Part shown: positions 92 through 62,262 of the stretch, piece by piece
How positions within the stretch are numbered: the first letter of the stretch is position 1
How the letters are laid out: every line of letters starts with the position of its first letter
Source of the DNA: Tetradesmus obliquus
Lineage: Eukaryota > Chlorophyta > Chlorophyceae > Sphaeropleales > Scenedesmaceae
Length of the DNA stretch: 64,000 nt
Assembly: GCA_030272155.1 (NCBI GenBank)
Contig: CP126195.1
Span: 558,001-622,000 of the forward strand
Direction: 5' to 3'
Notes under the pieces: generated by a model
What the model saw: the letters and a program-made list of their open reading frames with translations, nothing else
The model's database searches: none
Told to the model about the DNA's origin: nothing
Program-made: the position numbers and the translations under genes

Positions 92-1626
92 ATACGGGCA
101 GCGCAGTGGCAACAGCAGCAGAGGTCGCACCGCAGCACGCCATCACGCTCACAGACAACGCGCTGTCTCACCTGCGCAAGCTGCAAAAGGAGGCTGGCAG
201 CGAGAGCCTGCTGCTGCGTGTGGGCGTGAAGCAGGGCGGCTGCAGCGGCATGTCATACGTCATGGACTTTGAGACAGACGCAAACATCAAGGTGCGGCAG
301 GGACTGGTCGCCTGAACACGGCCAGTACTAACAGTTTAGGCTGGGGTGTAGCAGGGATTCTTGTTAGAAGGCGCTGTTGAAGCTGCGGTGGGACATCAGC
401 AGTCATGTGTGGCTGCAGCAACAGCAGCAGGCATGGCACAAGATACACCTTGGTTGTGGTGTGTCATCACATTCAGCAGCACAGTTTTGGTAGCTGCCAA
501 GAGCTGGCGCAGCTATGTGTGGCCATCACACACAGCGCGCTTTGCTGCAGCTGTCAAGTTTGCTGCTGTCAAGTTATCTAGCGGAGTTTTGGGTGCACCA
601 GCAGCAGACGGCTGTGGCGTTGCTAGCTCTGTGCTGATCATCAGCAAGCGGCACCGATGTGCATATGTAAGGCACAGCCGTGCTCCTCCTGCTTGACATT
701 TCTCGTGTTGCTGCTGTGCCAAGCTTTGAACAGCCACTGCTGTTTGATGTGTGCCTGCATCATTACAACACCATTACCAGGAAGATGACTACATTCCTGA
801 GTACGAGGGCGGCTTTCGGCTGGCCTGCTGTACCTCTTGCTGCTGTATCCATTTGCTGCGTCACTGCACCGCGTCACTGCCCATCCCAACTTTAATGTGC
901 CTCGCACTGTGTCCAACAGGAGGACGACTACATCGTGGAGTACAGGGGCGGTTTCAGGCTGGCCTGCGACCACTCACAATGCTTGCTGAACCACTGTATG
1001 TGTGCCGCCGCCGCTGCAAAACTGAACAGGAGGACGACACCTTGCAAACAGGCGTTCTGTCGTCACGCGTCGCCTCGTTCGCTGCTGCTGTGGCAAGCAG
1101 CTACTATGGCCAGCTGCTTGTCATCTGACGTACATACTCTTTCATTTAATCTTATGCGCCGCAGGAGGACGACTATATTGTGGAGTATGAGGGCGGCTTC
1201 CGGCTGGCGTGCGACCCCAAGAGCCTGCTGTACCTCTTCGGCATGAGCCTGGACTACAGCGACGCACTCATCGGCGGCGGCTTCAACTTCAGGTATGCTT
1301 TGGCAGTGACCAGTCAACGTTTAGGGCTTGCTAGCTGTTGCGTTGGGCCTGCCAGCGTGCTGCGCACCACTGTCAACTTGCGACAGGGTCATGCAGGTGT
1401 TGCAAGCAGCATCAGAAGGCGTGCGCCTAAAGCGCAGGGCAGCTTTTGCAGCAGTGCATCGCATGTAACCTCACCTACTCCAGCACACTCCTCGACTCTG
1501 AAGATAATAGTCTGAAATGGGCAACCCTGGACTGATGTTGGTTTGCTGCCTGCCATTTCCTTGTTGCGCTGCAGCAACCCCAATGCTGAGAGCAGCTGTG
1601 GCTGCGGCAAGTCTTTCTCTGTCTAG
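92..1626 (+). CDS. SUFA1: Plastid-type SufA/IscA iron-sulfur cluster carrier, 5'-partial
   Basis: A-type Fe-S carrier of the HesB/IscA family, which receives or transfers clusters in the plastid SUF pathway. Exons 92-291, 1165-1292 and 1575-1626 join in phase (phase 0, then AG|C). The product reads [13 protein letters not shown], then [38 protein letters not shown] and [16 protein letters not shown] before TAG. The three cluster-ligand cysteines are present: one in GGCSG and two in CGCG. The [12 protein letters not shown] core is close to plant CpIscA. The first visible exon follows an acceptor (CTACAG at 86-91) and lacks an ATG, so the start and probable transit peptide lie upstream. Intron 1 holds three degenerate copies of the start of exon 1165-1292. 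Identity is firm; plastid location is inferred from similarity. Confidence 0.9.
781..1040 (+). repeat. Three exon echoes in SufA intron 1
   Basis: Copies of the acceptor plus the first part of the exon at 1165 begin at 781, 920 and 1030, each directly after a CAG. The first reads [16 protein letters not shown], the second [17 protein letters not shown], and the third only the EDD start. The true exon reads [20 protein letters not shown]. Spacing is about 139, 110 and 135 bp. None continues to a phase-correct donor, so I treat them as intronic. Confidence 0.85.
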
Positions 1627-4600
1627 CCGCGCCAATGGCGCTGCGCCAAATGGCATGCAGCAGCAGACTCGAACAGCGGGGATGCTGGAGCAGCTGGTAG
1701 ACAGTTATCCTGCCCAGGGCCTTACAAGTTTGGGCGTTGCAAGGGCCCGTCGGCTCGGTCACTTTGTGCTGCAAGGGTGCATGCTCTTTGTGTATACTAT
1801 GTTGGTGCAGCAGCGTTGGCGCATGTCAGGCTGCTGCGTACGTGTTTGTGTTGGGAGCGTATGGTTGGCTGGTATCAGGTAGACGGTACGGATGCAGGAC
1901 AGCGCGGTTGAAGAGTGGAGCGCTGTTTGCTGCTTGTGTTCAAAACACGCCAGGCACTGTGGTACTGTGGCGTCTACGTGGCGTCGGGTGGCGTCAACGT
2001 TTTGTTGGTGGTGAAGTGGCTGCTGTTTCACGCTGACACTACCAGTGGGTGTTGTTGTTGGTGGTGCCGCGCATGCACTTCAGACTGCGCGCTCAGCGCG
2101 TATGGCTTTTGGAGAATGGCTTGGAGAATGGCAGGCAGATTGATCTTTGACTGCATGGTGGTTATGAGTGCTGTAGGTCATGCAGTGCACTATCAACGTG
2201 CATCGCATATGCCAGCGCTGGTTGCGCTTGCCACTGCATTAGCTCATGTAAATGCTGCGGGATTTGAAGTCACACTGCGAGGGCCCGTCCTTTGAGAGGC
2301 ATGCATTTGATGCATGGAGCGTTGTCAGCACGCTGTGGACCGAAGGTGTTGATTGCCAGTTACTACTAGTAGGCTACGCAGTCAGCTGCAGTAGTGCGGC
2401 AGCTCCTGACCAAGCCGCTTGGCAAGACATGCAGCCATCATCTAAACTCCAGAAATGCACAGAAAGCACCGGCAGCACATGTGCTGTACATAAAGCACCA
2501 AGACGTAATTTGCCTCAGGCCTCCGGCAAACACCAAGCTAGCTTAGTGTGTACACACCAGTAAGCAGTCCCTTTGTCAACGTGCGCGGTACTGGCAAGCT
2601 TGACAAGCTGCGTCGATTGGTTCGCACCTACCACAGATCGAACGTGCTGAGGATACTTCCATGCTTTCATGCTATATTCAAACTCTCTGTGAACAGCCTG
2701 TGGGGTACAGTGTACCCCAAGTAGGAAATGCAGTACACATGCCTTTCATCACTGGGAGTTCATGGCATCAAGCTAACAACTAGCGACCGTATGACAGTCA
2801 ACTCACCAAGACGGCTTTGCCAGGCATTATGACTCAAACAGGCAAAGAGGCAAAGAAGCAACGTTGTGCTCACTGTGATGATGAGTGTCATAACAGCCTC
2901 CTGCCATACCGCGTCACACACTGTTGCCAGCCACAGTACACGACGACATCATGCATTGCTGCCCAATGCAAACCACAACCAAAGCACCCATTGTGGCTGC
3001 AACATGCAGCGCTTGACCCCGAAATGTCAATGCTGCGCAAGCTCAAAACATCAGTGCTGCTAAAGCTAAAACATCACCTTAGGACAGTGCTGCTGCCAGC
3101 AGTGCGCTGGCCTGCACAGGCATGGGTTGTGCATGGCAAGCGCAGCTGGATTCGGCAGTTGACGGTCCCAAGCCGCTGCAGCTGCTGCTGCAGCTGCTGG
3201 CCCACACCCATCAAGTGCAGGTTTCAAGCAAACCGTCAGGCACAGACTGTCCGAAAATGCACGATATCAACCATTCCTCAAGCACAACAAACATAAGCAA
3301 TATCCTGCATCCAATACAGACAAAGCCCCTGCGCAGCAGCACTGCCAGTAGGTGAACTGGCAAGCTCAAGGCAACACTCACACAATGGCAAGAGTGGAAA
3401 ATAGCGTGCAACAAAAACACATCCGCAGAAGCAACAGACTTTGCTGCGCACAGCCAAGCACAGTCAGTGGTGCCTAGGGGCTCCCAGTCCTGGCGGCTGC
3501 AACATACCTGGCAGCAACTTGCTGTTGAAAACAAAACAGCACATGCAGCACACAGCACGCAGCACGCAGCAGGAGCGCAATCATGCCGTGCCAGCAGTGC
3601 CGCAAACTGACCCGAGCCATTGCCCAAGGTCAAGCTCAGGGACAACATCCCGGTAGTGGTCTCCAGCAAATCATCATGCAAACGGAAGGTGCATGTATCG
3701 TAGCGCACAAAGGCTGATCTGCCATGGCATGCACACAGATACTACATCCAATGACTAGTACTCACCCTAATTTGGCATGCCGTGCTGCAATACAGCAAAC
3801 AGACACGCAAGCTGAAACACACAGATGGCCACACAGATCGACAGATACAGTCTTTGGCCCAAGGGCAGGCCCACACCATTGCTCACAGCCTATATGCTTT
3901 GTCAACCTTGGTCAACCCCTGCAGTGCACGTTGGCAGCCAGCAAGGCCTACTGGCGTCAACCACGCTTGGTTGAAGCACTGCCACGCACACATGGCTTCA
4001 TGGTACGTGCCCCGTTGGGCTTGCACCCTGCACGGTGCTCGTCCAACAAGGCAATGCAGCAAGCCTCAAAAAGTGCTCCCGAATCATGCACAAGGCAGCT
4101 GCATAGCTGCACAAGGGTGAGGCAACATAACACCCATCCGCACGATAGCCACCCAAAGTTTGGAAACTCGCCTTTACGCGCTGATCTACACCCAGCACAT
4201 ACAATCATCATGCATGCGCACAAACACCGCCAACCATCGGCTGTATCAACATATAACTTTCTAAATGTAATGCAGCAGGTCACAGCAGTCACCAACATCA
4301 GTTCCCTGCGATCCGGCCCCGTACTTCAACCTGCACCTTTTGAGTTGATCTAGCCATACAATTTCATCTAACCCTTCACACAACATAGCAATCCTCCCAA
4401 CACTGTCTCAAAATGGGATGCTCATTTAAGCGTCTGCTGCACCCACCAAAGTTTGCAATGCCTCTGATACATGGCGCACTGAAGGCAGGAAGATGTAACG
4501 TCACGTGACGTAACATAACCACACGACACTGAGGCTGTATTTTGCAGCGCCACACACTGCAGCCACCCTGCACAACAAACAGTGTGATGGTGGCCATGCG

Positions 4601-5180: not shown

Positions 5181-5267
5181 GTAACAAACATGCATTGATC
5201 CCTTCAGCGCCTCATAACCAGAGCGCCCCACAGGTCTGATATGACAGGTGCCGCACACAGACATCCA

Positions 5268-6916
5268 TCACAGGTCTGAGATGAAGCGCTCCCGTGCCTC
5301 GCGGCTGTCCTGCATCACGCTGGTGAGCTGCTCAGCCAGCTGCGCCTCAACAGCAGCAAAGGACGGCCGCGAGAAGGGGTCGGCAGCCCAGCAGGCGGCC
5401 ATCAGCTCTGCAGCAGCAGCAGCAGTGGCGAGACAATGACAGCAGCGGATGCACACGGCTGAGCATATGGCGGTGGCAGCAAGCAGCCCCTGAGAGGTAC
5501 CAGCCATCCAGCAGTCGAGCAGCTGGCACACGGCTGAAGCTACAAATTATGAAGAGCCAAGTGCAGCTGCTACCGAGCATGTGACTAGAAAGAGGATACC
5601 ACGCATGATGCTGGTCTGGCTGCAGCGCTGCTGTGCGCCTCACCTGCATAGTCCTGGGGCATCTCTGGCGGCACTGGGGGCCGCTTCTGCCACAGCGCCA
5701 CCTGCTCAAACACCTCGCCTGGCGCAGCAGCAGACGCAGTGGCAGTAGCAGCAGCAGCAGCGAGACAGCACACAAAAAACGGTGAGCACCGGCTCTATTT
5801 AATTAGAGTGTCCATCTGATCCAGCAAACAAATGAGAGGGTTCGGCTGCTGCACACTGCTCAATGTAGTGCAGCGCAAAGAAGACAGTCCTGGATGTGGA
5901 GACCTCCCACATGAGGCAGGCGCCACAACAAAACAACACAAAATTATGCTGCTTGATTGATTGAATGAACGAATGACATTGTTCACCCACCGTAGTGCAG
6001 CCCGCTGAAGGCGATCTTGGATGTGAAGACCTCCCACATGAGGTTGATGCCACAACACAGCAGAACAACAGAAACAGAATGCTGCTCGACTCATCAGACC
6101 GATCACAATCCTTTGCCCACCGCAGTGCAGCCCTGAAAAGGCAATCTTGGATGTGAAGACCTGCCACATGAGGTTGATGCCGCAACAAAACAACAAATCA
6201 GATTGCTGCTCGACTCATCAGACCGATAACAATCCTTCGCCCACCATAGTGCAGCCCGCTGAAGGCGATCTTGGATGTGAAGACGTCCCACATGATGATG
6301 ATGATCACATCAACTTGAAGAGCAGCTATTCTTTATGGTCCAGTTGATATACAATTCAAAACCCACCGTAGTGCAGCTCGCTGAAGGCGATCTTGGATGT
6401 GAAGACCTCCCACATGAGGATGCCAAACGCGTACACGTCACCGGCAGGGCTCAGCCGCCCCAGCCGCAGCAGCTCCGGCGGACTGCAGCAGCAGCAGCAG
6501 CAGCAGCAGCAGGCAATGCACAAATTCAATTTGCAGTACTTCCTAGCAGTGGCCTGCCGCCACAGCATCAGCGTGCCACCACACAGCACCGCAGTGATGC
6601 TGATCGGGTGTTGAACAGTTGCCCAGCACAAGCAAATGTTTGTACAGTAGTCCGTTCACGCACAGGACAGTGATGATTGGCTGCAGCCGACAGCCAGCGC
6701 AGTGAGCAGCTGCATGGCTGCCAGCAGTACTGCCAACCGACGCAGTGCACCATAACCACAACCACAGGATGCACAGATGTGTGCTTCATCCAAAGTTGTG
6801 CCCTGCAGGGCGGTTACAAAACAATCTGAACACCGCCAGGCCCCGCTCGCTCACGTGTGGTTCATGGTGCCCATGGTGCGCGTGGACTTGTGTGACTGCC
6901 CCACCTGCAGCGCCCT

Positions 6917-9857: not shown

Positions 9858-10871
9858 TAGCAGCAGGCATATCAGACTCTGCTGCTGGTGCGGGCGCAGG
9901 TGCTGCTGCTGGCTCCGGTGCTGCTGCCGCCCTGACCCTGTTGCTGCCTGACGACCCCTGCCGTGCAACTGTATTGCTACAGCCAGCACCAGCACCAGTG
10001 CCAGCAGCAGCAGCACCAGCAGCAGCAGCACTGCCAAAGCCACTGACAAGAGGCAGCCCCACTACGCTGCTTCCTGCAGACGCATTGGATGCAGGCACAT
10101 GTGGTGTACTGCCTCCCACTGTATTGCATGGTGTACTGCCTGCAAGTGTACTGCCAAGTGTACTGCCTGTCACGACAACACCTGGCGGCTTGGGGAAGCT
10201 TTGCTTGCCGCTGTCATAGATGCTGCTGCTCTCTGTTACTGTCTGCATCTTCCGCCGCATGACTGCTGATGGCAGCTCATCTGTGCCTGAGCTAGGCCGC
10301 CTCGAATTTGGGGTGAGTAAAAGAGACGGTGACAGAGAGTTGGAAGAGGCTGTAGAAGGCTGGCAGTAGTGCTGCTGCTGCTGCTGCGGGAGGGGCGCTG
10401 AGTCATCAGCGCTGTCGCTTTGGGCCCATGTGACAAAGTGGTACGCTGCCACGATGTTGAGATGCCTGCAAGCATGCACAGCAAAACGAGTACAATTCAG
10501 CCACACGATCACCACAGAAAGATGTTGAGTGTCGCATTTGTGTGAGGCAGCAGCAGGCATGTGTATCAAGAGCACACTGCAGTGGCGCCGACTTCAAAGG
10601 CTGAATTAAGCCTGTACACATGCTTTGCACAGTGTTTGCCTGCACTGCCATGCCTGCTGCTGCCTCTGATGCTGTTGCTGCTGTGCAGCCCAACACCACT
10701 GCTACTGGCTTCTGCACAATAAGAACACCACTGCTACTGGCTGCTGTATGGTTCACTTGGCTGCTGATCATGCTGCTGCTGTTGCTCCACTACTGCTGCT
10801 GCACTTGATCTTGATGAGAGACCGCGCATCATCACCTGAAGCTCATGACCAGGTCCACCTCGCTGGCCACA

Positions 10872-10903
<32 letters not shown>

Positions 10904-13900
10904 AACTACCAAATGCTGCTGATGCTGCTGCCCATGAAAAACAATACATGTACTACCTACTGCATCACCTGAAGCTAATGAAAAGGTCCACCTCACTTGC
11001 CACTGCTGCTGCCACTGCTGCTGCCACTGCTGCTGCTGCTGCTGCTGCTGTGCTACTACCAATGCTACTGCAGCTGCAACCCCTGAAAGATGATACCTTT
11101 ACTACCCACTGCCTCACCTGAAGCTCATGACCAGGTCTACCTCGTTGGCCACTGCTGCTGCCGTGGTGCTGTCATGCTGCAGCACCTTGACAGCCACCGC
11201 CAGGTCACGCCACACGCCCTTGTACACGCGCCCAAAGCTGCCGGCACCTGCAGGAAACACAGCAAGCCACACCAGAAGCAGGAGAGCTGTAGCCAAATTG
11301 CACAGCACGAGCAGCTGCAGCACCATGCATGAAGAAAGAGCTGTTCTACCTAGAGACAAAGCATGTGAAGTGTCACTCGCTCCCTTCTCGCAGCTGCAGT
11401 GCTCACCCAGCAGCACGCCCAACCGGATCTTGTCATTCGGGGAAGGATCCCTGATTTCACTCACGTAAATACTCATGCCCTCACTCGCTGATCGCCTCTC
11501 TCCCTCCCTCTCTCTCTCTCCAGGCCAGATGCACTGGCCAGGGGCAGAGGGAGAGCAAATCTAATTACATTAAATGCTTGCAGGAAAGGGCAGCAGCAGC
11601 GGTAGCAGACTGCTGCTGCTGCACCTGATGGGAATCAACATGCCACATACTGTTTATGAATATTTACAATATTGATTATGGTTTTACCTTCAGCATATGT
11701 GACTGGTTTTACAGTTGGCTCTCTGCATGTCAAATGCTGGCTGCAGCACACTTGTTGCCTGGCAGCAGCTGCTGTCAGTGTTTGAACGCAGCAGAGATCT
11801 GCTGGTTTTACAGTCGCAGGGTTATGCAGCCATTGCTGCTGCTAAGCAAATTTGGCCAGATGCACACCGCAAGGTGCTGCCATTCTACCATTATCAGCAG
11901 ACGTCTGTGGTGTCAGCAAGGTGGCCACCTGGGTGAGGCAAGGGCGGAGCTCCAGCATGAGACGCTGAAATGCATGCCGGTCCCACTCTGTCGTTGCGCT
12001 GCAGCAACAGAGTTGCCGCTTGAGCCCAGTGCCTTGTTGAATGATACATGATGGAATGTTGCAGGCCCGAGTAACTCGACCTCAGAAACTGCGCACTGCG
12101 ACTGTCTCCGTTCTGCCTCCTCGATCTGATTATCAGCGGTAAGCATATATACATATATATGCTATAAAAGTAAATTGACGGGTCAGTAATGCACGAACTC
12201 CTGCGTGCACGAATGCAAGATGCGCCCACCAGAAGCTTCCAGCAGCAGCTGGCAGTGCCGGTGCAGAGCTTCCCCAGAACAAGTGACTGGGGCAGTGAAA
12301 GCCAGCAAAGACGGACGACATGATGAAATACATTTGCAGATACGCAGAAATACAAGACTCTCTCTGCCACTCTCTCTCTCGCTTACCCTTTTACTCTCTT
12401 ACTCTCACTCACCCAGCAGCACGCCCAGCCGTATCATGTCAATTGCCTTGGCGTGAGAGGGAGAGTGACAGGGTGTGAGGGGTAAAGGCAGTGAGTACGA
12501 CAGGGAGTGAGCGAGAGAGCAAAGGGCTGAAGGACTCACCCAGCAGCACGCCCAGCCGTATCTTGTCATTCGGCGAGGCGTCCCTGAACTCTGGGCAGGT
12601 GTGGCAGGCCAGCAGCTGCCAGCCGCCGCCCCTGCTGCCCACAGCCAGCGACTCCAGCGTGCCCGCAGCACCCCTGCAGCAGCAGCAGCAACAGGCACAA
12701 GATGATGTTATGTAGTGTCTCGAAGCATGTGCACCATCTCAGCACCTGGCCATCGCCAGCGCCAGCAGTCACTTTTACCACAGTAGCCCGCGCTGCAAAT
12801 GCATTCTATGATGCTGTCCAATGGCTATTGTACAGCAGGCAACCACTGAAAGCCATATAGAATCATAACAAGTTGTTACGCGTGGGTCATGGCACCATCC
12901 AAATACGGGCTGGGACATGTTTGCTTTCATCACTGCAGACCCATGCTTTTCCCGCCCACTGCCCATGCATCTATGTGTTGCGACATAGCCGCAAGCAAGC
13001 ACACACCCGTGGGCGCCAATGATGCAACTTCCTAAGACGTCTTTTGAGGCGCAAGTGCCTCACGTACTGCAGACCCAAACCCTCCCGCTCACTGCCAGTT
13101 CCCTGCTGCATTGTGACACATTGTGACACATTGTAACGCATTCTCGTGCATGCAACGCACCCGCGCGCCCCGATGATGTCACTCGGGTTGCTCTCATCCT
13201 GCAGCCCCTTGCTGCCAGCAGAAGCTGAGGGCGGAGGCTGAGGCTGGTAGCCTTCTTTTGCTGACTTTGCTGCTGCTGCCACTGACTCTGCTGCTGCTGC
13301 TGCCATGCGGCGCTTCTTGCGCTTGTAATACAGCAGCACTGCGGCAAGCGATGCCAGCAGCAGGACACCTGCAGCGCAGTGTAGGAGCAAGCAGCAAGTT
13401 GCACCGACTATTTGCATCATGCTGTACGCTCAGCAATAGTCATGTGGCCAACATGCATGTTAGCAGCCGCAACAAACAGTGCAACGCATGGCACGCATTC
13501 ATCAGCTGGTCGCTGCACTCGCATTGACAGATCCAAGTTGCTTCATACTGAGCTAGTACAGCACTGCAGCACACCCTTCCCCACCCATCCCCTTCCCCAC
13601 CAGCAACAACTGGCGTCTGCCCCTCACCTGCCACAACAACCGGCGCAGCAATTGCCGCCACATTGACGCCGCGCCCGCCACCCTGCCTTGCAGCTGCCTC
13701 CTCTGCCAACAGCGCATTCACCGCCTCATTCAAACACAGATCTCCGCCCCTTTCTGCCACACAAGCTTCTGATACATAGCTGAGGCACACTCGTGTGGTA
13801 TTCAGCTGCTGCACGGAGTAGCCGGCATAGTAGGCTTGCGTGTCGGCCACGTCGCCGGGTGACACGATGCTGCTCACGTCAGACGCACGCAATGAGCCTG

Positions 13901-20280: not shown

Positions 20281-20385
20281 GCTGCAGCTCTGCGATTACT
20301 GCTAAACACTCGTGACACAATCCACACTGCAATCGGCCGTTTTCGTTGCTCAATTACGTTTCCGTGCAACATCTTAGCTATTAAA

Positions 20386-20973: not shown

Positions 20974-21057
<84 letters not shown>

Positions 21058-23420: not shown

Positions 23421-23478
23421 AAGCACGGTGCTGTTTGCGCAGAATGGCCGGCACACCTGCCAGCGCCGAACATTGGAT

Positions 23479-24231: not shown

Positions 24232-24283
<52 letters not shown>

Positions 24284-33634: not shown

Positions 33635-34937
33635 TCACGCACTGGAGGTGGGATCTGCGGCCGCTTGCTCTTCCACTGTTTGCTGTGGGCTGGCAGCGCT
33701 GCTGCTGCCGCCTGGCGTGCCTGGTTGTGGTGGCAGCAGCGCACCCACCAGCAGCTCTAGACGGCGAGGGTCGCTTAGGTGCAGGTGGCCCACCTGCGAT
33801 ATGCACCGGTTGCAGCAATGTGGGCTTCCTTGCCTGATGGGGCATTTCTGCTACTACACGCATATGCACACGACCGCATCCGTACCTGTTGAAGCACCAT
33901 TGCAGCCGCATGCAACGACACACGCCCACAAAGCAGCTGTGCATTGCCAGCGTAGCATAGGAGTCAGCGATCCACCAGGGCCTCCAGCATCTGATTACCA
34001 ACACCTACCGCCACAATATGCAAGCATCACACCAGCAACCAGCCGGACACTGCCAGCCACCCACCAGCGCCTGCATCGCGGTCGCCTTTCTGTACGCCGG
34101 TGCTGCTACCACACGCATTAAACACATCCATACATAAACTCATCACTCTTGCAATAACCCACCAGGGTTTCCAGAGCTGTGGCCTTCCTGTACGCCTCTG
34201 CTGCTGCTGCAAGGCTTGCACGGCACAACCTTGTCACTGCCTTTGACCACCTTCAACAGCCACCAACTCCTTCAAGAAAATACGTGCAAAGCAGCCAAGC
34301 AGCAACAGTGCAACTGCCAGCGACCCACCAGGGCCTCCAGTTCTGTTGCCTTCCTGTACGCCACTGCTGCCGCCACACGCAACACAAATACATCCACACA
34401 TACACTCATCACTGTTGCAGCAACGCACCAGGGCCTCAAGTGCTGTGGCCTTCCTGTAAGCCTCTGCTGCCGCCACACACAACACAAACACATCCACATC
34501 ACAAATCACAGTATAACAATTGCAGCAGCCCACCAAAGCCTCCAGAGCTGTGGCCTTCCTGTCCGCCTCTGCTGCTGCTGCAAGGTCTACACAGCACAAC
34601 GTCCCTGCCTTTGACCACTTTCAACAGCCACCTCAAGCAGCACCGAAAAGCCAAAACACCAAAAGGCAGCCCAGCAGCATCAGCAAAATAGTCAGCAGCC
34701 CACCAGCGCCTCCAGAGCTGCCGCCTTCCTGCAAGCCTCTGCTGCCGCCGCATGCAACACAAACACATCCACACATCACACTACAACAGTTGCAGCCACC
34801 CACCAGGGCCTCCAGAGCTGTCGCTTTCCTGTACGCTTCTGCTGCTGCAGGGCTGTCGAAGCGCTTCCGCAGCTTGACAGCCTGCCAGGCAGCGATGCGG
34901 CGCAGCAGCGCAGCCTCAGCAGCAGTCAGCTGCAGCG

Positions 34938-36342: not shown

Positions 36343-39300
36343 ATGGTGAGCATGGCGGGCAGCTACATTCAGCTTTCTTGGGACACCGGTCCTCTCACGC
36401 TCCCAGTCAGCCTCATTCGATCACCTCGTTCTGCAGGCAGTTCAAGGAAATGTTGCCCTGGCCTTCGGGCTGGTCGTGGCTGCCGGCATGTGCACATGCT
36501 TCGGAGCCATGCTGGTGTTCTGCACCAGCCTCGCAAACCACCGGGTGCTGGCTGCAGCACTGGGTGCTTCAGCAGGCGTGATGATGGTGAGAGATCGGCC
36601 AGCATCTTGAAGGCTGAACTAAGCATGGAATCTATCTAGCACAGTCCGCTCACTACAGCAGCTCACTGGACCCGTCAACCCTGGACCTGTGTGCTTTGTT
36701 CTTGCAGCGGTGATGTCAGATGCACGAGGATGCAGTGCCACACCTCCAGTGGTTTGCAGCAGCATGCTTGCATTGCTGCTCTGGCTGCACCCCCACATCC
36801 CATCACCCCTGACCCTCTCATCTCACAGCCCACAAGTCACCCTTCCTCCCTGCCATCTGCCACCTGCCATGCAGTACGTGAGCTTTGTTGAGATCACCAA
36901 CAAAGCAGTCACCGCGTTTGCTGATGCCGGCATGCCCGCTCACGAGGCAGCCCGCTACGCCACCTTCTCATTCTTCCTGGGTGTGGTTGCCACCTGGCTG
37001 CTGGGCAAGCTGGTGGACTGCCTTGCCACAGCAGCACGCGTTATTCAGGCCAGGAAGGTGCGAAGCATTCTGTGATGGATAAGCAGATGTCAGTGGGTGC
37101 GTTGTCAGAGATAGGATGGCACACAGCATCCAGGACCAGACACCAAAAAGCGCAAACAAGCAGTGAGGCATGCGCTGTGGGGTGATGTTTGGTGTCTGTG
37201 GGCATCCGGCCCTTTTGCAAGGTTGTTTGGTGATCGTAATAGCATTCGGTTGCAATGCCATGGTTGCTATGCCATGGATTTTTTTTGAGTGCTCACACCG
37301 GCCGTTGCTTGCTGCTTGCAGGAGCGTCTCGCTGCAAGCGGCCGTGCTGGACGCTGTGCGCAGTTCTCTCTGTGCTCCTGCATTCCTGGCGCTGGCAGCA
37401 AGGCAGCCGCAGCAGCAGACGTCGAGTCTGGCGGCGCAACTGCCACAGTGGTAACTGCCGGCAGTCTTCATCATCAGCAGCTGGATGTTGACGCATGCGG
37501 CGCAGCAACAGACCAAGCAGCCAAGAACCACACCACCTCCTCTTCCGCAGCCGCTAGCAAGGGCCCTACAGTGTCAGCTGATGCAGCGGCCGTTGACCCG
37601 CTTGCTGCACCAGCTGTGCCGCCTATGGTGCTGGCTGCAAGCGGCTGCAAGTGCGGCTCTGCAGCATCGTCTGTGGATGGCTCTGTCACCATGTGCGACT
37701 GCTGCTGCGAGGGAGTGCCGCCTGCAGCACCCCTGGAGATCCCCCCACAGGTGAACAGGCTGCTTCGTTGTGGACAGAGAGTTTTCATATAGCATGTAAG
37801 TATCCTGAGCACGTCCGATCGGAATGTGGCGTAGTGCTGGCAGGGTGGCATGTGCAGCCACTGCTCTGATGAACCTGTCGCCTTGTAGGCGCCGTGTGCG
37901 GTGCACACCATTGGATATCGACTTGGTGCTGCCCGCTGACTGCCAGCTGAATGTGGCAGGAGCTGCTGCATGAGCTTTTTTAAACTGTTGGATCGACTAT
38001 ACCGCGGCTGCTGCGTGTTGCTTCGGTTGCTTGCTTGCAGGAGAACCTCCAGCTGGCGTCCAGCCCTGCATGCAGTCGTCTGGCACGCAGGACACCAGTA
38101 TTTTACTGTCTGCTGTGTGGTGAACCCAAGGTGGTTTGAAAGTGGCTTTCTCCTCTGAGTTCACCTCTTGCTAGAAATACGTGTAATTGATTGATTGATT
38201 GTGTGGTGTGCGCTTGCAGGAGAACCAGCAGCTGGCGGCCATGATCGCGTCCGACCCGCACGCCCCTGACCCTGGCGCGCACGATACCAATACATAATAT
38301 TTTCCTGTCTGCTGTGTGGTGTGTGCTTGCAGGAGAACCAGCAGCTGGCGGCCATGATCGCGTCTGACCCGCACGCCGCTGACCTGGCGCGCACCGGGCT
38401 GCTGACGGGGCTGGCGGTGGGCCTGCACAACCTGCCTGAGGGCCTGGCCACGTTTGTGGCCACACTGGCCTCACCCTCTGCTGGCATTGCCATCGCTGTG
38501 GCCATGTGAGTGGTTATTTGCGTGATTTGCATGTGTACTGAAGGCCTGGCCACCTTTGTGGCCACGCTGGCCTCGCCATCCGCTGGCACTGCCATCTCTG
38601 TCGCCATGTGAGTGCATCTGTGTGTATGGCATCTGTAAAGGGAGGCCTGGCCACGTTTGTGGCCACGCTGGCATCACCCTCTGCTGGCATTTCCATCGCG
38701 GTCGCCATGTGAGTTGTGCATCCTTTGTGTATTAAAAATGTCAGGATGTCATGAGTATGCATGCGCGCCCTGCTCTACTTGCTTGCCCATTGCTTCTTGT
38801 TTGCATGCAGTGCGCTGCACAACATTCCGGAGGGCGTCGGCGTCGGCAAGCCCATCTACCACGCCACCCTCCTGTGCATACTCTGTACATGCCCTTGACT
38901 GTCCTGTTTTGCTGTTCCCTGCTGTTTGTTTGCTGCAGTGCGCTGCACAACATCCCGGAGGGCGTCGTCGTGGCCATGCCCATCTACTACGCCACCCTCC
39001 TGTACATGCCCTTGACTGTCCTGTTGTGCTGTTCTGTTCCTGTTTCGATGCTGCAGTGCGCTGCACAACATCCCCGAGGGTGTTGTCGTGGCCATGCCCA
39101 TCTACTACGCCACTCACCCAAATGCACTGCACCCTCAATATTGCATCCTTTTTCTGTGCATGCAGTGCGCTGCACAACATCCCTGAAGGCGTCGTCGTGG
39201 CCATGCCCATCTACTACGCCACCAAGTCCCGCTGGCGCGCCTTTGGCTGGTCCTTTGTGAGCGGCGTTGCAGAGCCCATCGGCGGCTTGCTGGGCTATGC

Positions 39301-50212: not shown

Positions 50213-52448
50213 CTGGTGTCTGTGCTGCGCCTGAGTGAGGAGCAGCTGCCAGAAGCTGAGCGGCTGCACTGCCTCAAGCTGTTCAGCAACCTGCTTTCGA
50301 CACAGGTGTGCAGCAGCGAAACAGGCAGCTGCAGGACACCTGCTAGCTTGCAGGAACCATGCTGTGGCATGCGTAATCCGTGCAACAGCGGCGGTAACAA
50401 TGGCATCCACCTGTATGACCCGTGCAGAAAGTGAACCCATTACAGAAAGCCACTTTCAGCAGCGGGCTTGCTGAGTCTGAGCCGTCATATGAATCTGTGA
50501 ACCCTGTGTGCTTGCAGGAAACCAAAGTCAGAGCCATCCAGGCAGGAGCCCTGCAGCCACTGCTGGCCTGGCTGGGCAATGACAGCAGCAGCGCAGCAGT
50601 GCGGCAGCTGTGCTGCAGGAGCATCGGCAGCATCTGCCAGCTGCAGCAGGGCAGGGCAGCGTTTACGGAAGCTGGTGGGATCCCTGTGCTCACAAAGGCG
50701 CTGGAAACCACACCAGATGCAGCAGTGGCAGCAATGAAGGTGGGCTTCTCACGCATAATGTAACCAGCAGAGTACTCACAGCAAGCTTGGTCCACTGCTG
50801 CTGCAGGTGCAATCGTAGACAGTAAGATTAGCTGCTCCTGGGATGAGGCGGCCTGGCACTGCATGTGCCATGAACCATTGTTGCACGCTGCAGCAGCCGC
50901 AGTATATGCGTGTATACAGCACCCAGTGCAACAGCAATGGGCTTGCCAGTCCAGGCATCCACGCACATCTACATATCTGGCAGCCTTGTGTGTTCGCTGC
51001 AATGCTCTAGCGCCCCGCCTGGCCAGGCCAGCGCAGCTGCTGCTCAACTGACACCGTCGCGCTGTCTGCAGGTGCTGGCTTGCTGTGCTGACGGGCGCAG
51101 CCGGCTGCATGCCTCACCTGCGCGTGTGACAGCAGCGCTGGTGGAGCTGGTGGGGCACCCCGGCAGCAGCTGGGCGGCAGCAACAGACGCAGTGGTGTGC
51201 ATCACAGGTGCGTGTGTGTGTGAGCCGAGCAACACAGGCTGGCACTTGATGTGCTGCAGACAGCAGCTGCTTCAAACATAGCAAGATGCAGCAGCCGTGT
51301 GACAACATTGTGTGACAATATGGTGAGTGACCATGTGCCCGACTCTCCTGCAGGGCTGTGCTACTCTGATGAGGGCGTGATTGATGCCCTGGCCTGCCAA
51401 GCCCCCCGCTGCCTGCAGCAGCTGTCAGGCCGTGCGCTGAAGCACCACGCGTGCCTGTCGCAGGCGCCGCAGCCGCCGGCGGCAGCAGCGGCGCAGCTGC
51501 TGGCCGCGCTGCGTGCTGCGGCTGAGGCGCTGCTGGTGGTGGGGCACCATGCGGACGGCAAGGCGCAACTGCGCCAGTCGGAGTGCATCCCAGGTGAGCA
51601 CACTGGCTGCAGCTGCAGTGCGACAAAGGCAGTCCTGGCGCACTGCTGTCCTTTGCTGCTGTGTGCTGCAGTGCTGGCTGACATGCTGGGCGTGGCTGAT
51701 GGCCAGGTGCAGGCCTCCGCGGCAGTACATGTGAAAGGACAAATTTAGACAAAGCCAGGATCGCAAAGGACGCTGGTAATGCACATATGGTAATGCACAT
51801 ATGGTAATGCACATGTGCCTCTGGCTCTCGCCAACTTTTGCGTTACTCTGCTGGTGTTCGCTGCGTGTGGCACTGCACTGCAGTGCTGGCTGGCATGCTT
51901 GGCGTGGCTGATGGCCAGGTGCAGGCCTCAGCGGCAGCTTGCCTGGCTGCGCTGGCCATCGAGGTGGACAGCAAGGTGCCGGTGGTGGCTGCTGCTGCAC
52001 CGGCCCTCATCAAGCTGGCGCAGGGCGGAGAGCCGGTGAGGGCCTGGCCTCACCACAGCCCATGTGGCGCATGATTGCTGCACCTCTGCACTGCAGTAGC
52101 CGCACGGGAAGCTGAACACTTGCCTGCTCCCTCATGCAGGCCACCCTCCTAGCTATGCATGTTGATGCTGGTCATCTGTCCACCTCCTGCGTGTTCCATA
52201 TGCTCTGTCCTGTGGCGCAGGTGGCCGCTACCGCCGCGCGCACCGCGCTGCTGTGTGCCGCGGAGCACCTGGATGCGCGGCGCAAGCTGGAGCTGCTGCT
52301 CAAGCCTAATGAACTGCAGGCGCTGCTGCAGCCGGTGGGGCAGCTGCAGCAGGTGCCTCCCGACTACAAGTATGTGGTGTGGAGCGCGGAGCCGCTGCCG
52401 CCGCGGTTTGGGTCTGGGGATGGTGCTGCTGGCAGCTCAGAGAGCTGA
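50213..52448 (+). CDS. Armadillo-repeat protein, RSPH14/RSP8-like candidate, 5' incomplete
   Basis: Exons 50213-50305, 50518-50739, 51072-51207, 51354-51593, 51884-52035 and 52221-52448 join in phase to 356 residues. Helical repeats are visible: AIQAGALQPLLAWLGND with AVRQLCCRSIGSICQLQQGR, FTEAGGIPVLTKALE, VLAGMLGVADGQVQASAAAC with LAALAIEVDSK, APALIKLAQGG and AARTALLCAAEHLDARRK. The C-terminus (DYKYVVWSAEPLPPRFG) is distinctive. Length and repeat pattern suit the radial spoke ARM protein of cilia (human RSPH14), but I cannot exclude another ARM protein. The N-terminal exon or exons are missing; a candidate lies at 49504. One exon echo precedes 51884. Confidence 0.6.
51672..51815 (+). repeat. 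Echo of an ARM exon start, plus 14-bp repeats
   Basis: TGCAG|TGCTGGCTGACATGC at 51672 copies the exon start at 51884 for about 55 bases (VLADMLGVADGQVQASAA), then diverges. A short repeat (TGGTAATGCACATA, three copies, about 51775-51815) follows it. Confidence 0.85.
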
Positions 52449-55205: not shown

Positions 55206-57385
55206 TCAGGCCTTGGGGAAGGAGAAGTACTCCTTGCTCCCCTTAGGAGTGGGCTTCATGGTCCTGCAGGCAAGCACAGCACGGCGCCGACGTGTTAGCA
55301 GGTGCTGCTCAATGCTCAATGCTGAGTCACCCGCAGAACACGCTCTGCCAGCGATGGTCAACGGTTGAACACCAGTCAAAAGTTGGGGCGATTAATACTT
55401 GGCGGTACGCCGGCAGTCGGTGAACTGCTAGAAATTCATGTTCTTGGTATTTGGTTTGGTTTGAGTGGAGTACAGCACCAACTGCCGCTGTTGTTGCAAT
55501 CGACTGCACCGCACCTGTCTCCTGGCCTCCAGCCAGCTGGGCACACCACATCTGGGTTGGCCTGCACGTGCTGCACAGCCTGCAGCACAAAGACAATAGA
55601 AAGTAGTCACATGGTGACGGCAGCAGGGGCAATCATCAGCATGAGTTAAACACCATACTCAGGTTGGCCTGCACGAGCTGCACAGCCTGCAGCACAAAGA
55701 CAATAGACAAAGTAGTCAAGATGACGGCAGCAGGGGCCATTAGCAGCACTGCTTGAATACAACATCAGGCTTGCATGCTGACCAGCCTGCAGCACAGCAC
55801 ATGGACAGCGCTGACACGGCAGCAGCAAAACACTCATCACCTCAGCCTGCTAGTGCACGAGGTTTATCCGCAGCAACACCCAGAGGCTGATGATGAAGCT
55901 TTCGGGAAGACCGCAAGACGGCCTGCAAGGCCACAGGTGACGCTAGCATCACCAAGGCCACAGGTGACGCTAGCATCACCAAGGCCACAGGTGACGCTAG
56001 CATCGAACCAAACGCAGCCACGGCCACGTACCGCCAAGATGCGAATGGTCTCTTCTACGTTGCGCCCGAATGCCAGGTTGTTGATGGTGGCGTGCTGCAC
56101 CACTCCCTCCTTGTCAATGATGAACAGGCCACGCAGTGCGATGCCCTCATCAGTCAGCACACCGTAGGCCTCGCTGATCTTCTTGCTCAGATCTGACACC
56201 AGGGGGTAGGCCAGGTCGCCTACACCACCTGCAGTACAAGAGCGGCAGTGCAGAATGCGAGGCTCAGCACAGATTGTATGGGCAGTCCAATAGTATACGT
56301 AGTGCGGCAACCAGGGTTGGGAGCTTCGTAGTTTGTGGTTCGAGACTGCTGCACGGCACAGGTCCACTATGTAATGCTGCAGCTGTGTTACAGGCACGCT
56401 GCTGTTGTCACCAGGACTCTCCCCTCATTGCGCGACTGGCGCGTCCACTGCAGGTGTGTCGCTTGCGACAAACATATAACAGGCACACAACAGACATACC
56501 GCTGCCTGCTCACCCACATTGCGGGCGTGGCGCGTCCACTGCAGGTGTGTAGCATGCAGGCATCACAAACCTATGCACCACAGCGGCACCAGCGCTGGAC
56601 TCCACCCTCGTTGCGCGGCTGGCGTGTCCACTGCAGGTGTCTCGCATGCAGGCACTCCGCACGCGACAAACAACTCCAAAAGTGCATCAAACATACTCTT
56701 CTCTGCTCACCCTCTTTGCGCGGCTGGCACGTCCACAGCAAGTGAATGGCATGCAGCCACAACACACATTATACAGGGCAGTCGTGATGCGGTCTGATGC
56801 AGCGCTGAGCAAACATACTGCTGTCTGATCACCTTCGTTGCGCGGCTGGCGCGTCCACTGCAGGTGTGCGTACTGGCTGTCCACGCTCACGCCCAGCACC
56901 TGAGCGTTCATGGCCTCAAACTCATCGTGCCTGTCGCTGTAGGCGGTCAGTTCCGTGGGGCCTGCAGCAGCAGCAGCAGCACCAGCAGGGATTGCTTAGG
57001 CATACAAAGAGATAGCTGGGGTGGGTGCTGTGCCAATTGATGTGGCAGTGTGTTCAATTGCCAATGGTGTTCAGCAGCAGCAGCAGCAGCAGCAGCAGCG
57101 GCGGCAGCGCATGGTGGGACACACGAGAAGGTGCGGTTGCGTGTGTGGTGCGCGAGCCGCAGGCGATCAACTGCAGGGTCAAGTGTGTAGCAACGGATAG
57201 CAATGCAGCTGCAGTGGGCTGTAGGTGCGGTTTGTGCCGCTTGTTCTATCTGGCAGTGCTGGTCATCCTGCTCTGTGCAGCTGCCACTGCTGATGCCTGC
57301 TTCCTGTGCCGCTGCTGCCGCTGCTGCTGCTGCTCCTGCTGCCACTCACAGACAAAGGTGAAGTCCAGTGGGTAGAAGAACAGCA

Positions 57386-57442
<57 letters not shown>

Positions 57443-58164: not shown

Positions 58165-59424
58165 CGTGCACCTGCGTCATTTGTAAGCAGATGGCAGATT
58201 GAAAGCAGGTGTGAAGCGCAGAAGCATTGGCAGGGTGATGTAGCCAGGTGGCCAGGATCGTAGATACAACATTGCTGGTGGTGCTGTGAGCGTTGTGCAT
58301 CTACCAATGCGATGATCACGACATCAGCAGGCTTCCTACTGCAGATGTGCTGCTGTGCTGGCATGGCAACTGCTGCTGCTGTTGCTGTCAGTGCTGCTGG
58401 CGTGTCCCACAACACATCGCTGCTCGATCGCGATTGCAGTATATTTATCAGTCGGATGCTGAATCACCGAGCATCAGGAGCACGGCATCGCGCATCTCCA
58501 TATCCAAGTCACCTGGCCATGGTGGTTGCTTCTGTTCGCAAGCTATATGGGCAAACTGAGATATCTGCGATGCAACAATAACAAGGCTATGATGTTGAGG
58601 AATGCCAATAGGCTGATCGGACAGGCTGTGCCTGCGACGTCTTGAGAAACTGCAGGAGAAGAGGTTGAGTCGGAAGATGCTCCAAGTACACACCTGTCAA
58701 CGTGCTTTGCTGCAATGATGTGCTTTGCAAACAGTATTCCCTCAGCAGCATTCGCAAATTGAGCCGGTGAAGGTGGCGGTGTCACCTGCGGTACATGACA
58801 TAGTGTCACTACTGCTGTTCCCAGCCCACCGTGGCTTCAAGTGTTGCTGCTGTCGTATGAAGGCCACGCAGCTGCTGCCGTGCTTTCACTGTGCTTGGTC
58901 GTTCACGAGCCGGTTCCGTGGTAGATGTCATCAAAGGGCATTCTGCAGCAGCCATTGCTGCTGCATGTAATCTCTTGAACCTTTCCAGGCTGTACACACG
59001 GCAGCCACCTCCACAAGCTGTTGTAAACACGGAGTTTGCAGAGTTTTATAAGCATGCAAAGCAATGGATCAATTGTACAATATGTTGTGTTCAGTGCAAC
59101 GGTTGCCAAGCCACATCCCCAGCCGTGATAGAGATCCAGAAGTCACTGACAAGCGCACGTTGCATCACTACCCCAAACACAAGAAATCGGTCAATCGCTG
59201 CTCCCAGTCAGTTCACATTGCTCTGCCGCTGCCGAAATCTTCTCTCCTGCCCTGCTGCTGCTGCTGCAACGCTCCCAATCACGAGACAGGCGCATGAGCA
59301 GCACAGATCTCTTCAATACAGCCGCCAGCAAGCATAGCAGCCGCCCCGACTGCAACATCTGCAGCTCCGGAGGCCAGCCGCCACAAGATTGTCATAACGA
59401 CACTGTAACAATTGTTATAACGCT
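58165..59424. other. Region between the two peroxiredoxin genes
   Basis: It should contain the missing first exon and promoter of paralogue B. One candidate on the minus strand is an ATG-started stretch near 58830-58960 rich in Ala, Thr and Arg (TSTTEPARERPSTVKARQQL). I could not connect it in phase with confidence. No other gene was seen. Confidence 0.4.
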
Positions 59425-62262
59425 TTAGATGGCTGCGAAGTACTCCTTGCTGCCCTTGGGGTCGGGCTTCATGGTCTTGTCTCCGGGCTTCCAGCCTGCT
59501 GGGCACACCTCGTCGGGGTTGCTCTGCACGTACTGGATGGCCTGCACGCATCGAAACAAAAAGGGGAAAGAAAGGCGGCAGCACGGATACAGCATCAGCA
59601 GCAGGAGGCGACAACAGCATGGCGCACGCAGGCTGGCAGCTGCGCCCATGCACATACATTGCGGCAAGCAAGCAGCCCCAGGATAAAATGTTGCATGCAA
59701 GCAGGCTACATTACTGCTTTGCAGCAAGCAGGAGCTTTTGGGTGGCAGTCAGAATGCGCAGGCCGCATCCACGCCGCATCCATATTCTGCAAATGCAATG
59801 AATTATTGCACAGTATGCACCAGCCATGCATTGAAAAATTCGCTGCCCTTTCATGAATGGCTTGTCACAGCACTGCCGTGTGTCAAAGCAGCGCACCTGC
59901 AGGGTGCGCAGGGTCTCATCAACGCTGCGGCCGAAGGCCAGGTTGTTGATGGTGGCGTGCTGCACCACTCCCTCCTTGTCAATGATGAACAGGCCGCGCA
60001 GTGCGATGCCCTCATCGGTCAGCACACCGTAGGCCTCGCTGATCTCCTTCTTGAGGTCAGCCACCAGGGGGTAGGCCAGGTCACCCAGGCCGCCTGTTAC
60101 GTCAGGCAGAAATAACATGAAAAGTAACAGGTGTATGTTGGTGCGTGTTGTGTGGAAGTTGTATGTGGGTGGGTGGCTGCCAGGGCCTCGCTGATCTCAA
60201 GAAGGAGAAATAACATGAAAAGTAACAGGTGTATGTTAGAGCATGTTGTGGGGACCATATGTGTGTGGGTGGCTGCCAGGGCCTCGCTGATCTCCTTCTT
60301 GAGGTCATCAGGGGGTAGGCCAGGTCACCCAGGCCGCCTGTTACATTGAGCGAAATGACAGGAAATGTAACAGTTATATGTTGCTGCAAGTTGTGTGGGG
60401 ATTGAATGTGAGTGGGTGGCTGCCAGGGCCTCGCTGATTTCCTTCTTGAGGTCAGCCACCAGGGGGTAGGCAAGGTCACCCAGGCCGCCTGTTATGAGGA
60501 ATAGGATTAACAGGAAACGTAATAAGTATATGTTAGTGCTTTTTGTGGAGAATGTATGTGTGTGGGTGGCTGCCAGGGCCTCGCTGATCTCTTTCTTGAG
60601 GTCAGCCACCAGGGGGTAGGCCAGGTCACCCAGGCCGCCTGTTACAGCAGGCAGAAATAACATGAAAAGTAACACGTGTATGTTAGTGTGTGTTGTGGAG
60701 ACTGTATGTGTGTGGGTGGCTGCCAAGGCCTCGCTGATCTCCTTCTTGAGGTCAGCCACCAGGGGGTAGGCCAGGTCACCCAGGCCGCCTGTTACATCAG
60801 AAATAACAGAAGCGTTTTCAGTTTTCGAGTCAGCAACCAAGGGGTAAGACAGAGGTCGTGCAAATCGCCCGTCACAGGAAGATAAGTAACCGAACATTTG
60901 CTGTCAATGATCACTTGCATTTGCTAACAGCAGGTGGCATCGGCCACTTGTGCAGGTGTGGGACACGAGGGTCCAAGATAAGGCCAGCAAGCCAAGCAGC
61001 GGCACACAGGCCAGCTGCTGTTGTCCTGCACCATCCTCACAGCCGGCTTCTGTCAACATGCATTTCCATAAGATCACATCAGTCTGTTGATCTGCCACTC
61101 ACCCTCCTTGCGGTCGGTCTGGATCCAGGCCAGGTGGGTGAACTGGGAGTCCACAGACACGCCCAGCACCTCAGCGCCGATGGACTTGAACTCTGCGTGC
61201 CTGTCGGAGAAGGCGGTGATCTCCGTGGGGCACACGAATGTGAAGTCCAGCGGGTAGAAGAAGAGCACCACGTACTGGCCCTTGTACTTGTCCAGGGACA
61301 CGTCCACAAACTCCTGGTCAAACACTGCAGGGTGGAATGACAGACAGGATGGCGACAGGGAGCGCAGGCAGGTGAGAGGGTGAGAAGGGTGCACTGTGAG
61401 GTGCTTGTCCAGGGACAGCGGAGGGAAAGGAAAGGAGCAGGAGGTGCACTGTGAGGTACTTGTCCAGTGACACGTCCACAAACTCCTGGTTAAACACTGC
61501 AGGGTGGAGCGACGATGGTTTGCAGCGGAGCATGGGAGGACAGCAGAAGAGGCACAGGGGAGGTATGGGGGTGGGATGCAGTAGGAGGGGCGTGGTGGGT
61601 GTAGTGCGGGGTGGAGCAGCGATGGACGTCGCAGGAGAATCTATGCCGCTGCTAGTTGCTGAAAAAACCGCAGGGACACGTTTTCCATGAACTTTCAACA
61701 GTACTGCGCTGTTGATTCCTGCAAGACTCAGCTGCTGGTGCTGGTATTGGCTAGGAGACTGCCTGCCCAAAAGCAGCCACACAACACAGCTGCTGTAGTG
61801 TGGCTACTGCCGCTGCAGTGCCTCATTGGCTGCACGCTGCATCTGTGACAAACAACATGATTAATTCAAGACGTTCGCGACTGCTGCTGCTGCACTTGCA
61901 AGGCTGCTGGCTGCTGAGACACCACATTCCAGACAAGCGATCAAGCAAACTTCTCCCACGGTGCCAAGTGTCAGGGCCAGTCTACCGATGCAATTTCGTC
62001 AACCTATAAATGTTTTATGTCAGCAGGGGTCGTCAATTGCTGCGATCCTCAGTTGTCTGGCACTGGTATTCTCCAGAGCGTTCTCACCTGCGGTTGCCTT
62101 GAAGGCGGGCGCCTTGCTGCCGATCAGGGGTGCAGCTGCGTTCACCACAACTGCGTTACGCCTGGAGGCACGCACCACCTGGCGAGCGGCCACGCGGGCA
62201 GGGGCAGCTGTCTGCCTGGTGGCACGAGCCACGCTCATGTTGCGGGATGCGCAGAGGGCCAT
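59425..62262 (-). CDS. PRX1: Plastid 2-Cys peroxiredoxin A
   Basis: Exons 62088-62262, 61103-61324, 59897-60093 and 59425-59541 join in phase to 236 residues, the usual length for algal plastid 2-Cys peroxiredoxin. It reduces peroxides in the stroma with electrons from thioredoxins or NTRC. The Arg/Ala-rich transit peptide ([20 protein letters not shown]) precedes [15 protein letters not shown]. Peroxidatic Cys90 is in [17 protein letters not shown] and resolving Cys211 in [55 protein letters not shown] and [19 protein letters not shown] are canonical. GGLG plus the terminal KEYFAAI mark the sensitive type that can be over-oxidised. Introns before exons 2 and 3 contain echo arrays. Confidence 0.95.
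60180..60860 (-). repeat. Tandem array of peroxiredoxin A exon 3 5' end
   Basis: Four near-complete copies (about 60283-60345, 60428-60494, 60578-60644, 60728-60794) and two partial ones (near 60182 and 60820) repeat the acceptor plus [20 protein letters not shown]. Three successive intervals are 148-150 bp. The intron part of the unit (CTGCCAGGGCC, TGTGTGTGGGTGG, ACATGAAAAGTAAC) is repeated too, so the whole unit expanded. After EISE the copies switch to ALAATH instead of AYGVLT. Confidence 0.9.
61390..61502 (-). repeat. Echoes of peroxiredoxin A exon 2 5' end
   Basis: The copy at about 61449-61494 reads [18 protein letters not shown] after CTGCAG. The true exon reads [21 protein letters not shown] shorter copy (LDKHLTVH) lies at about 61390-61425. 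Both sit in intron 1. Confidence 0.85.

Follow-up and report, generated by a model that had tools for sequence, protein, structure and literature searches.

The window analyzed here is a 64-kb stretch of the genome of the green alga Tetradesmus obliquus (C5:558001-622000). It contains genes in which one edge of an exon is repeated inside the adjoining intron, together with its splice site. We refer to these repeats as exon-edge arrays; each consists of an intact exon edge and 1-6 intron-side copies that carry the splice site. Thirteen of the 16 local arrays in the window are of this kind, seven of the acceptor type and six of the donor type, as assigned from translation and alignment, and the exon-edge copies that an earlier note had read from the sequence are to that extent real. 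The copies do not merely decay: the bases that determine amino acids, and the splice sites, outlast third codon positions and spacer. The 13 arrays are as follows.

778..1216, plus strand: acceptor array of a SufA-like gene; the intact acceptor ends at 1164, and copies with AG are at 780 and 919.
5865..6422, minus strand: donor array of a protein kinase gene; intact donor 6366, copies at 6244, 6120, and 5990 that keep GT. A further downstream unit lacks GT and is outside the retention count.
10830..11183, minus strand: donor array; intact donor 11117, copies at 10968 and 10835.
11393..12587, minus strand: donor copies; intact donor 12539, copies at 12412 and, ~1.1 kb downstream, at 11406.
34049..34848, minus strand: donor array of a mini-RNase III-like gene; intact donor 34803, six copies extending to 34064, all with GT.
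38032..38394, plus strand: acceptor array of a ZIP transporter exon; intact acceptor 38332, copies at 38040 and 38219.
38436..38732, plus strand: donor array at the opposite end of that ZIP exon; intact donor 38506, copies at 38608 and 38709.
38791..39223, plus strand: acceptor array of the next ZIP exon; intact acceptor 39165, copies at 38810, 38938, and 39056.
51666..51937, plus strand: acceptor copy of a gene labeled ARM; intact acceptor 51883, copy at 51671.
55555..55796, minus strand: acceptor array of a late exon of peroxiredoxin 1; intact acceptor 55580, copy at 55687, and a third copy at 55787 with weak exon-side similarity.
56414..56868, minus strand: donor array of peroxiredoxin 1; intact donor 56832, copies at 56710, 56605, and 56513 that keep GT, and a copy at 56422 without GT.
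60031..60808, minus strand: acceptor array in peroxiredoxin 2, within the homologue of the peroxiredoxin 1 intron; intact acceptor 60094, copies at 60338, 60489, 60639, and 60789.
61284..61508, minus strand: acceptor copy of an earlier exon of peroxiredoxin 2; intact acceptor 61325, copy at 61497.

In three further window arrays (4978-5295, 24854-25278, and 33263-33727), no exon edge could be assigned, and a copy claimed earlier at the end of YciI was not located. Pfam bears out some of the gene labels given in the earlier note: the kinase (PF07714), the ZIP transporter (PF02535; first exon E 0.0014, below the curated cut-off; next exon E 1.7e-17), and both peroxiredoxins (PF00578), as well as ClpP outside the window. 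There was no Pfam match for the SufA fragment (42 aa) or for the mini-RNase III and ARM fragments; the latter two names are the earlier labels, unconfirmed by Pfam, and the SufA name is one we assume from resemblance. The two peroxiredoxins are tandem genes of the AhpC/TSA family on the minus strand, at 55000-61700.

Our material is 304 kb of a 104.66-Mb, 17-contig genome: the window, plus 240 kb elsewhere, in ten 20-kb and four 10-kb places on contigs 1-14. These places were chosen manually, at 1.0 Mb (for C5, at 2.0 Mb), and are non-random; arrays in them are labeled S5, S11, S15, S21, S23, S25, or S28, followed by a position. Local arrays were detected by self-BLAST with CAG-type repeats filtered out. 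Exon-edge status was curated by eye from alignments and translation, without transcripts; for the sampled arrays, mostly one pair per array was viewed. A self-trained gene finder supplied the coding score and site matrices for an exon track, for placement tests, and for reading frames. The gene predictions of self-trained finders were themselves discarded, having strayed to CAG repeats or merged strands.

The arrays are a general feature of this genome. Of 103 local arrays, 87 lie outside the window, and 53 of these are exon-edge arrays; the remaining 34 are minisatellites, protein repeats, satellite-like, or unclear (alignments of S11 17496 and S11 18722 were unseen). The phenomenon is therefore not confined to the window, and arrays were present at all 14 sampled places outside it, with the exon-edge form at 12. 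Altogether, 66 exon-edge arrays were anchored at a splice site, 32 at donors and 34 at acceptors, with the window contributing 13. Array frequency is far above chance: in an ungapped scan of the 304 kb, offsets of 13-600 gave 328 similar pairs, and control offsets of 3000-3587 gave 2. The sizes reported earlier agree with ours. The exon part per array is 16-129 bp, with a median of 54 bp (64 arrays), and the spacing between copies has a median of 125 bp (127 gaps), mostly 85-250 bp. Excluding a minisatellite at S28, donor spacings have a minimum of 86 and a median of 130 bp (54 gaps), acceptor spacings a minimum of 85 and a median of 125 bp (65 gaps), and none of these 119 gaps is <85 bp. In the offset scan, the shortest period was 90-149 bp in 54 of 93 clusters and 40-89 bp in 2; rows from Tandem Repeats Finder numbered 12 at 30-74 bp and 24 at 90-134 bp. 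The scarcity of short periods rests on the offset scan, because BLAST itself might conceal periods under ~50 bp.

A score-based placement test covered 99 arrays (four longer than 1 kb were omitted) and used coding evidence from outside the array only. At a cut-off of 5, 59 arrays adjoined a coding edge, compared with 36 and 30 under two kinds of random placement. The excess became smaller as the cut-off was raised: 70 vs 41 and 35 at a cut-off of 3, 41 vs 27 and 24 at 8, 26 vs 21 and 18 at 12, and 15 vs 15.4 and 12.8 at the strictest, 16, where the excess was gone. An earlier version of this test (59/99 vs 39 expected at score 5) was rejected as inflated by copies predicted as exons.

Where the similarity ends is informative about what is retained. 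In a splice-site-anchored, ungapped profile of 118 copies, the match between exon and copy is ~0.9 beside the splice site and fades slowly into the exon. On the intron side of donors, it falls from 0.87 at +5 to 0.70 at +6 and 0.43 at +7; at acceptors, it is 0.97 at −3, 0.86 at −4, 0.74 at −5/−6, and 0.4-0.65 from −7 to −13. The same step is seen when copies are compared with each other (25 pairs at donors, 31 at acceptors), with donor values of 0.84 at +5 and 0.32 at +7. When gaps were permitted and spacers from different arrays served as the control, 117 of 118 adjacent pairs were alike on the exon side and 42 on the intron side; in the other 76, the intron side beyond the consensus is unlike. 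The duplicate spans the intron-exon boundary in all 66 arrays curated by eye. The 42 pairs that share intron sequence indicate that tandem duplication of a larger unit does occur. The copies thus retain the essentials of the exon edge and mostly not its surroundings. The splice dinucleotide is that of the exon in 113 of the 118 aligned copies, compared with 0.81 for exon dinucleotides within 10 bp. These counts omit S21 623 (wrong anchor) and S28 5798 (a 37/42-bp minisatellite); before these rows were dropped, the site was kept in 121 of 127 copies. Two arrays, S23 591 (whose copy lacks GT) and S25 3805, have no aligned copy. A boundary test without gene models points the same way for donors: donor motifs cluster 5-8 bp before similarity ends on the 3′ side, with 42 in the last 9 bp and 11-23 in deeper bins (the pairs are non-independent). 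For acceptors, the test was uninformative, the matrix being satisfied by CAG repeats.

The differences were also sorted by codon position, in reading frames derived solely from the exon; of 64 arrays, 16 had no clear frame, leaving 48, of which 43 have exon-copy differences and 21 have copy-copy differences. Exon-copy differences at codon positions 1/2/3 number 72/59/219, a third-position share of 0.63 (0.56-0.68 when bootstrapped by array). Copy-copy differences number 69/60/157, a share of 0.55 (0.50-0.61). For exon-copy differences, the share exceeds one third in 35 arrays and falls short of it in 6; for copy-copy differences, the corresponding numbers of arrays are 17 and 3. Random frames gave an exon-copy share of 0.33, with a maximum of 0.51 in 500 trials. 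The ratio of amino-acid-changing to silent differences per site (pN/pS) is 0.21 between exon and copy and 0.31 between copies; the copy-copy value is 0.20 for the 20 pairs with alignable introns, 0.45 where intron similarity is doubtful, and 0.34 where introns are unalike. In the alignable pairs (30 exon-copy and 20 copy-copy), mean identity is 0.86-0.87 for the intron, 0.96 for codon positions 1 and 2, and 0.80-0.82 for position 3. Base composition is not the cause, as third positions differ more within each base.

Arrays with at least three copies allow changes to be assigned. Changes unique to the exon fall 4/2/28 over the three codon positions, and those unique to a single copy fall 39/31/64; 61 of the latter are silent and 73 non-silent, with 24% silent expected for random changes. 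If the clock is equal, simple arithmetic puts amino-acid change at ~0.3-0.4 of the silent rate in copies and ~0.04 in the exon. The third-position bias is 0.64-0.67 in several-copy arrays and 0.51 in two-copy arrays. Across four successive distance bins away from the splice site, exon-copy mismatches at codon positions 1 and 2 climb (6, 12, 14, and 16 of 312 each) and those at position 3 stay flat (28, 27, 31, and 31 of 156). This trend is from alignments of at least 36 bp (52 non-independent pairs in 30 arrays).

One gene shows what becomes of a copy. A Pfam PF03572 fragment on C3 is identical over 61 aligned residues to PDB 1FC6, the photosystem II D1 protease, a structure that we take to derive from Scenedesmus (Tetradesmus) obliquus itself. 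When the exon translations are joined as spliced, 126 of 126 residues match. In this gene, an acceptor-type copy lies 91 bp upstream of the exon (GANVVCMLVNRGDLVL vs GVNVARMLVDRGDLVL). In the crystallized protein, GLFPAG joins VNVARMLVDRG directly, with no copy between. The protein is continuous across the junction, so the copy is absent from it; in this one gene, at least one copy is spliced out. Nor did the duplicate make a new intron, as the protein sequence leads from the exon upstream directly into the intact copy.

The tandem peroxiredoxin genes show the relative age of arrays and introns. They have a common intron at the same position and in the same phase (GAAG|GT and GAGG|GT to CAG|G), with a donor-side array in peroxiredoxin 1 and an acceptor-side array in peroxiredoxin 2. 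Because the intron is shared and the arrays are at opposite ends of it, the arrays postdate the gene duplication and arose in an existing intron; they are younger than their intron. A 295-bp piece of a peroxiredoxin array, the one unit searched, matches its own array and, once, a site ~4 kb away at the paralogue; all four of its matches lie within 4.7 kb.

These observations suggest the following scheme. Local tandem duplications that span splice junctions would recur genome-wide in introns already present. Whichever copy stays attached to the exon body would remain exon, and the others would be removed with the intron. Direct repeats of such size and distance are expected to collapse. By collapse or unequal exchange between direct repeats ~125 bp apart, the copies would keep exchanging with the exon edge, and each collapse would put the splice-proximal part of a copy into the exon. 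A damaged copy would then be a standing risk of a damaged exon, selected against at about the rate of exchange, which may be enough in a very large population. By fixation theory, amino-acid change would be held to 0.35 of neutral at 2 × population size × collapse rate of ~1.9. Purely intronic duplicates would be unprotected and fade, leaving the surviving arrays at exon edges. The rise of mismatches at codon positions 1 and 2 with distance is expected under this scheme, because collapse always exposes the splice-proximal part. We put the probability of this reading, recurrent junction-spanning duplication with copies held under exon-like selection by an exchange with the exon that we infer, at roughly 40%. 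That spliced-out copies across the genome are under selection on both amino acids and splice sites through such recombination is a more tentative claim, possible but doubtful.

The rival explanations (headed ALTERNATIVES in our report) fit parts of this evidence. Under neutral tandem duplication, each copy is nonfunctional from the start and decays, and arrays are noticed at exon edges because one partner, the intact exon, does not change. Geometry then accounts for the polarity and the splice sites. The earlier note had judged the polarity too regular for random duplication, but it is forced: when a duplicate contains a junction, the exon can only be the copy that remains attached to the exon body, so 5′-edge copies must lie upstream and 3′-edge copies downstream. 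Some young arrays also look as neutral duplication would have them, with the entire unit repeated at 97-98% identity, intron included (a ClpP donor array of five 118-bp units, L006 9320-9859, S5 19320; and S28 3505), and the D1-protease copy and the two-copy arrays fit it as well. However, neutral duplication predicts copy-copy differences spread equally over codon positions, contrary to the excess at the third, and the pN/pS of 0.20 in copy-copy pairs with alignable introns is hard to square with it. Simulated one-way neutral copying from the exon reaches a third-position share of at most 0.46 (exon-copy) and 0.40 (copy-copy), a conflict that is least in two-copy arrays. In S15 210, moreover, exon pieces are identical over 55 bp with no similarity in the adjoining intron. 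We consider neutral decay unlikely. A direct function, in which copies serve as alternative exon edges or mini-exons in translated transcripts under ordinary coding selection, would account for pN/pS of 0.2-0.3 and kept splice dinucleotides, the pattern of a coding exon edge. It is at odds with the spacing (a multiple of three in 33 of 127 gaps, no preference), with spacers that are mostly unrelated between copies, with in-register stops within 45 bp in 9 of 90 copies, and with the D1-protease copy, which is not in the known protein. In alignments judged by eye and uncounted, the far end of copies showed no clear partner splice site; in Dscam-type tandem alternative exons, each copy would have both splice sites and be used in transcripts. 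This reading is somewhat less probable than neutral decay. The use of spare sites to tune splicing, which the earlier note had inferred, does not predict the codon-position bias.

Staggered breaks with fill-in and filler would leave a piece, an unrelated insert, and a piece again, favored or tolerated at the splice consensus. Near-identical exon pieces with an unrelated intron side (ClpP S5 19096, at 96%, and S15 210) are what this would produce, as is similarity that ends near +6 or −3. Such breaks do not by themselves give silent-site differences between copies, the spacer beside the site is shared in 42 of 118 adjacent pairs, and it is not apparent why the pieces should end at the splice consensus; we hold this explanation to be rather improbable, a little more so than direct function. 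Replication slippage alone, another suggestion of the earlier note, likewise leaves unexplained both the stop of similarity at the splice consensus and the silent-site bias. The same note had raised the idea that introns are born when exon sequence containing an AGGT core is duplicated in tandem, a model established elsewhere (as set out in part of PMC3443670). Here, CAG|GTG does occur at many donor anchors and could serve as both an acceptor and a donor, but the peroxiredoxin paralogues (one gene pair) share the intron and not the arrays, and the SufA (CAG|GAGG) and ClpP (CAG|ACCA) acceptors lack GT. Intron birth is thus very unlikely. An assembly artefact, for which the repetitive nature of the arrays is the one argument, deserves next to no credence: copies differ from one another (median exon-part identity 0.86-0.92), and exon-edge arrays occur at 12 of the 14 sampled places as well as in the window. 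Taken as a whole, the interpretation in the earlier note is partly supported.

Several observations weigh against exon-like selection through exchange. No exchange event was seen. Simulated two-way exchange in which damaged copies are merely barred from the exon yields third-position shares of at most 0.49 (exon-copy) and 0.43 (copy-copy); exchange alone therefore falls short of the observed shares, and selection on the copies is needed, at a strength that we assumed. The changes unique to single copies could, taken alone, fit neutral change plus older states of the exon. The bias in two-copy arrays (40/78) is near the neutral bound, the D1-protease copy is near-neutral (four amino-acid and three silent changes, counted by hand), and five exon-copy pairs with doubtful intron similarity have a pN/pS of 0.98. 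The distance trend is uneven between copies (7, 14, 8, and 18 of 192). In 45-bp alignments, exon-copy mismatches are 3, 7, 10, 7, and 11 of 210 at codon positions 1 and 2, and those at position 3 fall too (21, 14, 19, 15, and 11 of 105). The copy nearest the exon is no more constrained than copies farther away. Dinucleotide retention leans high, as copies that align short of the site, such as the last kinase unit, are uncounted; array edges were set by eye; and the absence of spacings <85 bp has no explanation in the scheme.

Intron gain by tandem genomic duplication is reportedly an idea of Rogers (1989) and Hellsten (2011). As outlined in parts of PMC3443670 and PMC4974935, it resembles the present case in being local duplication at splice-site-like sequence; it needs an exonic AGGT segment, and the intron forms between two AGGT copies. 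Here, by contrast, the duplicated pieces contain an existing junction, and the peroxiredoxin intron predates the arrays. The potato RNA-dependent RNA polymerase (RdRp) duplication is closer, since its duplicated piece comprises an intron end, the acceptor, and the start of the next exon. By the partial account in PMC4974935, that is one gene and one duplication, and a new intron was made, whereas we see dozens of arrays in 304 kb, donors too, existing introns where tested, and coding-like divergence of copies. Polyubiquitin genes with dual-specific splice sites also have site-bearing tandem repeats, much as many donor arrays here read CAG|GTG, but their repeats are whole coding monomers (in the portion of PMC10809524 drawn on), and ours are partial exons whose spacing does not favor multiples of three. 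Introner elements likewise place repetitive sequence in many introns; as portrayed in part of PMC9860276, they spread over many genes, unlike the one peroxiredoxin unit searched, which matches only its own array and the paralogue. No account of such arrays was found in the titles and starts of abstracts of the open-licence literature. Junction-spanning duplication is already known; what would be new is a constraint on copies that are spliced out.

Some further observations concern individual places. Examples of the CAG|GTG donor sites are those near 5269 in L006 and near 6240 in L025, both on the minus strand; such sites might double as acceptor and donor, as in recursive splicing. In whole-genome Pfam tables (13+149+92+30 matches, only the best candidates scored, and with short copies beyond reach), at least five places among the best-scored candidates repeat one stretch of a Pfam profile next door in the manner expected of exon-edge copies, as judged by eye: S41 on C16, Helicase_C at C14:674610 and C14:3487950, and AAA at C12:706563 and C7:5449444. 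At a kinase place in the same tables, C15:1399073, the fit to the polarity is not clear. C3:1000001-1020000 (L009-L010) has 1.1% CAG-type repeat, compared with about 10-20% at other places, and no exon edge was assigned to any of its three arrays; the 20 kb could be a mobile or foreign insert. Within the window, stretches in 20377-29726 recur at ~3-kb steps, a larger tandem organization (20377-20650/23684-23972, 23669-23780/26682-26795, and 26723-26790/29659-29726).

For annotation, the arrays carry a warning, since copies resemble exons to gene finders: the exon track called 60329-60788, in the peroxiredoxin 2 array, an exon. Extrapolated from the hand-fixed places, 53 arrays in 240 kb would correspond to roughly 23,000 genome-wide. 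If the reading that we favor is true, the introns of this alga would be a record of past exon-edge copying, and second-order selection, on mutational risk, would be measurable from sequence in many replicate arrays. Selection would then act on what a sequence may become, and not on its present role.

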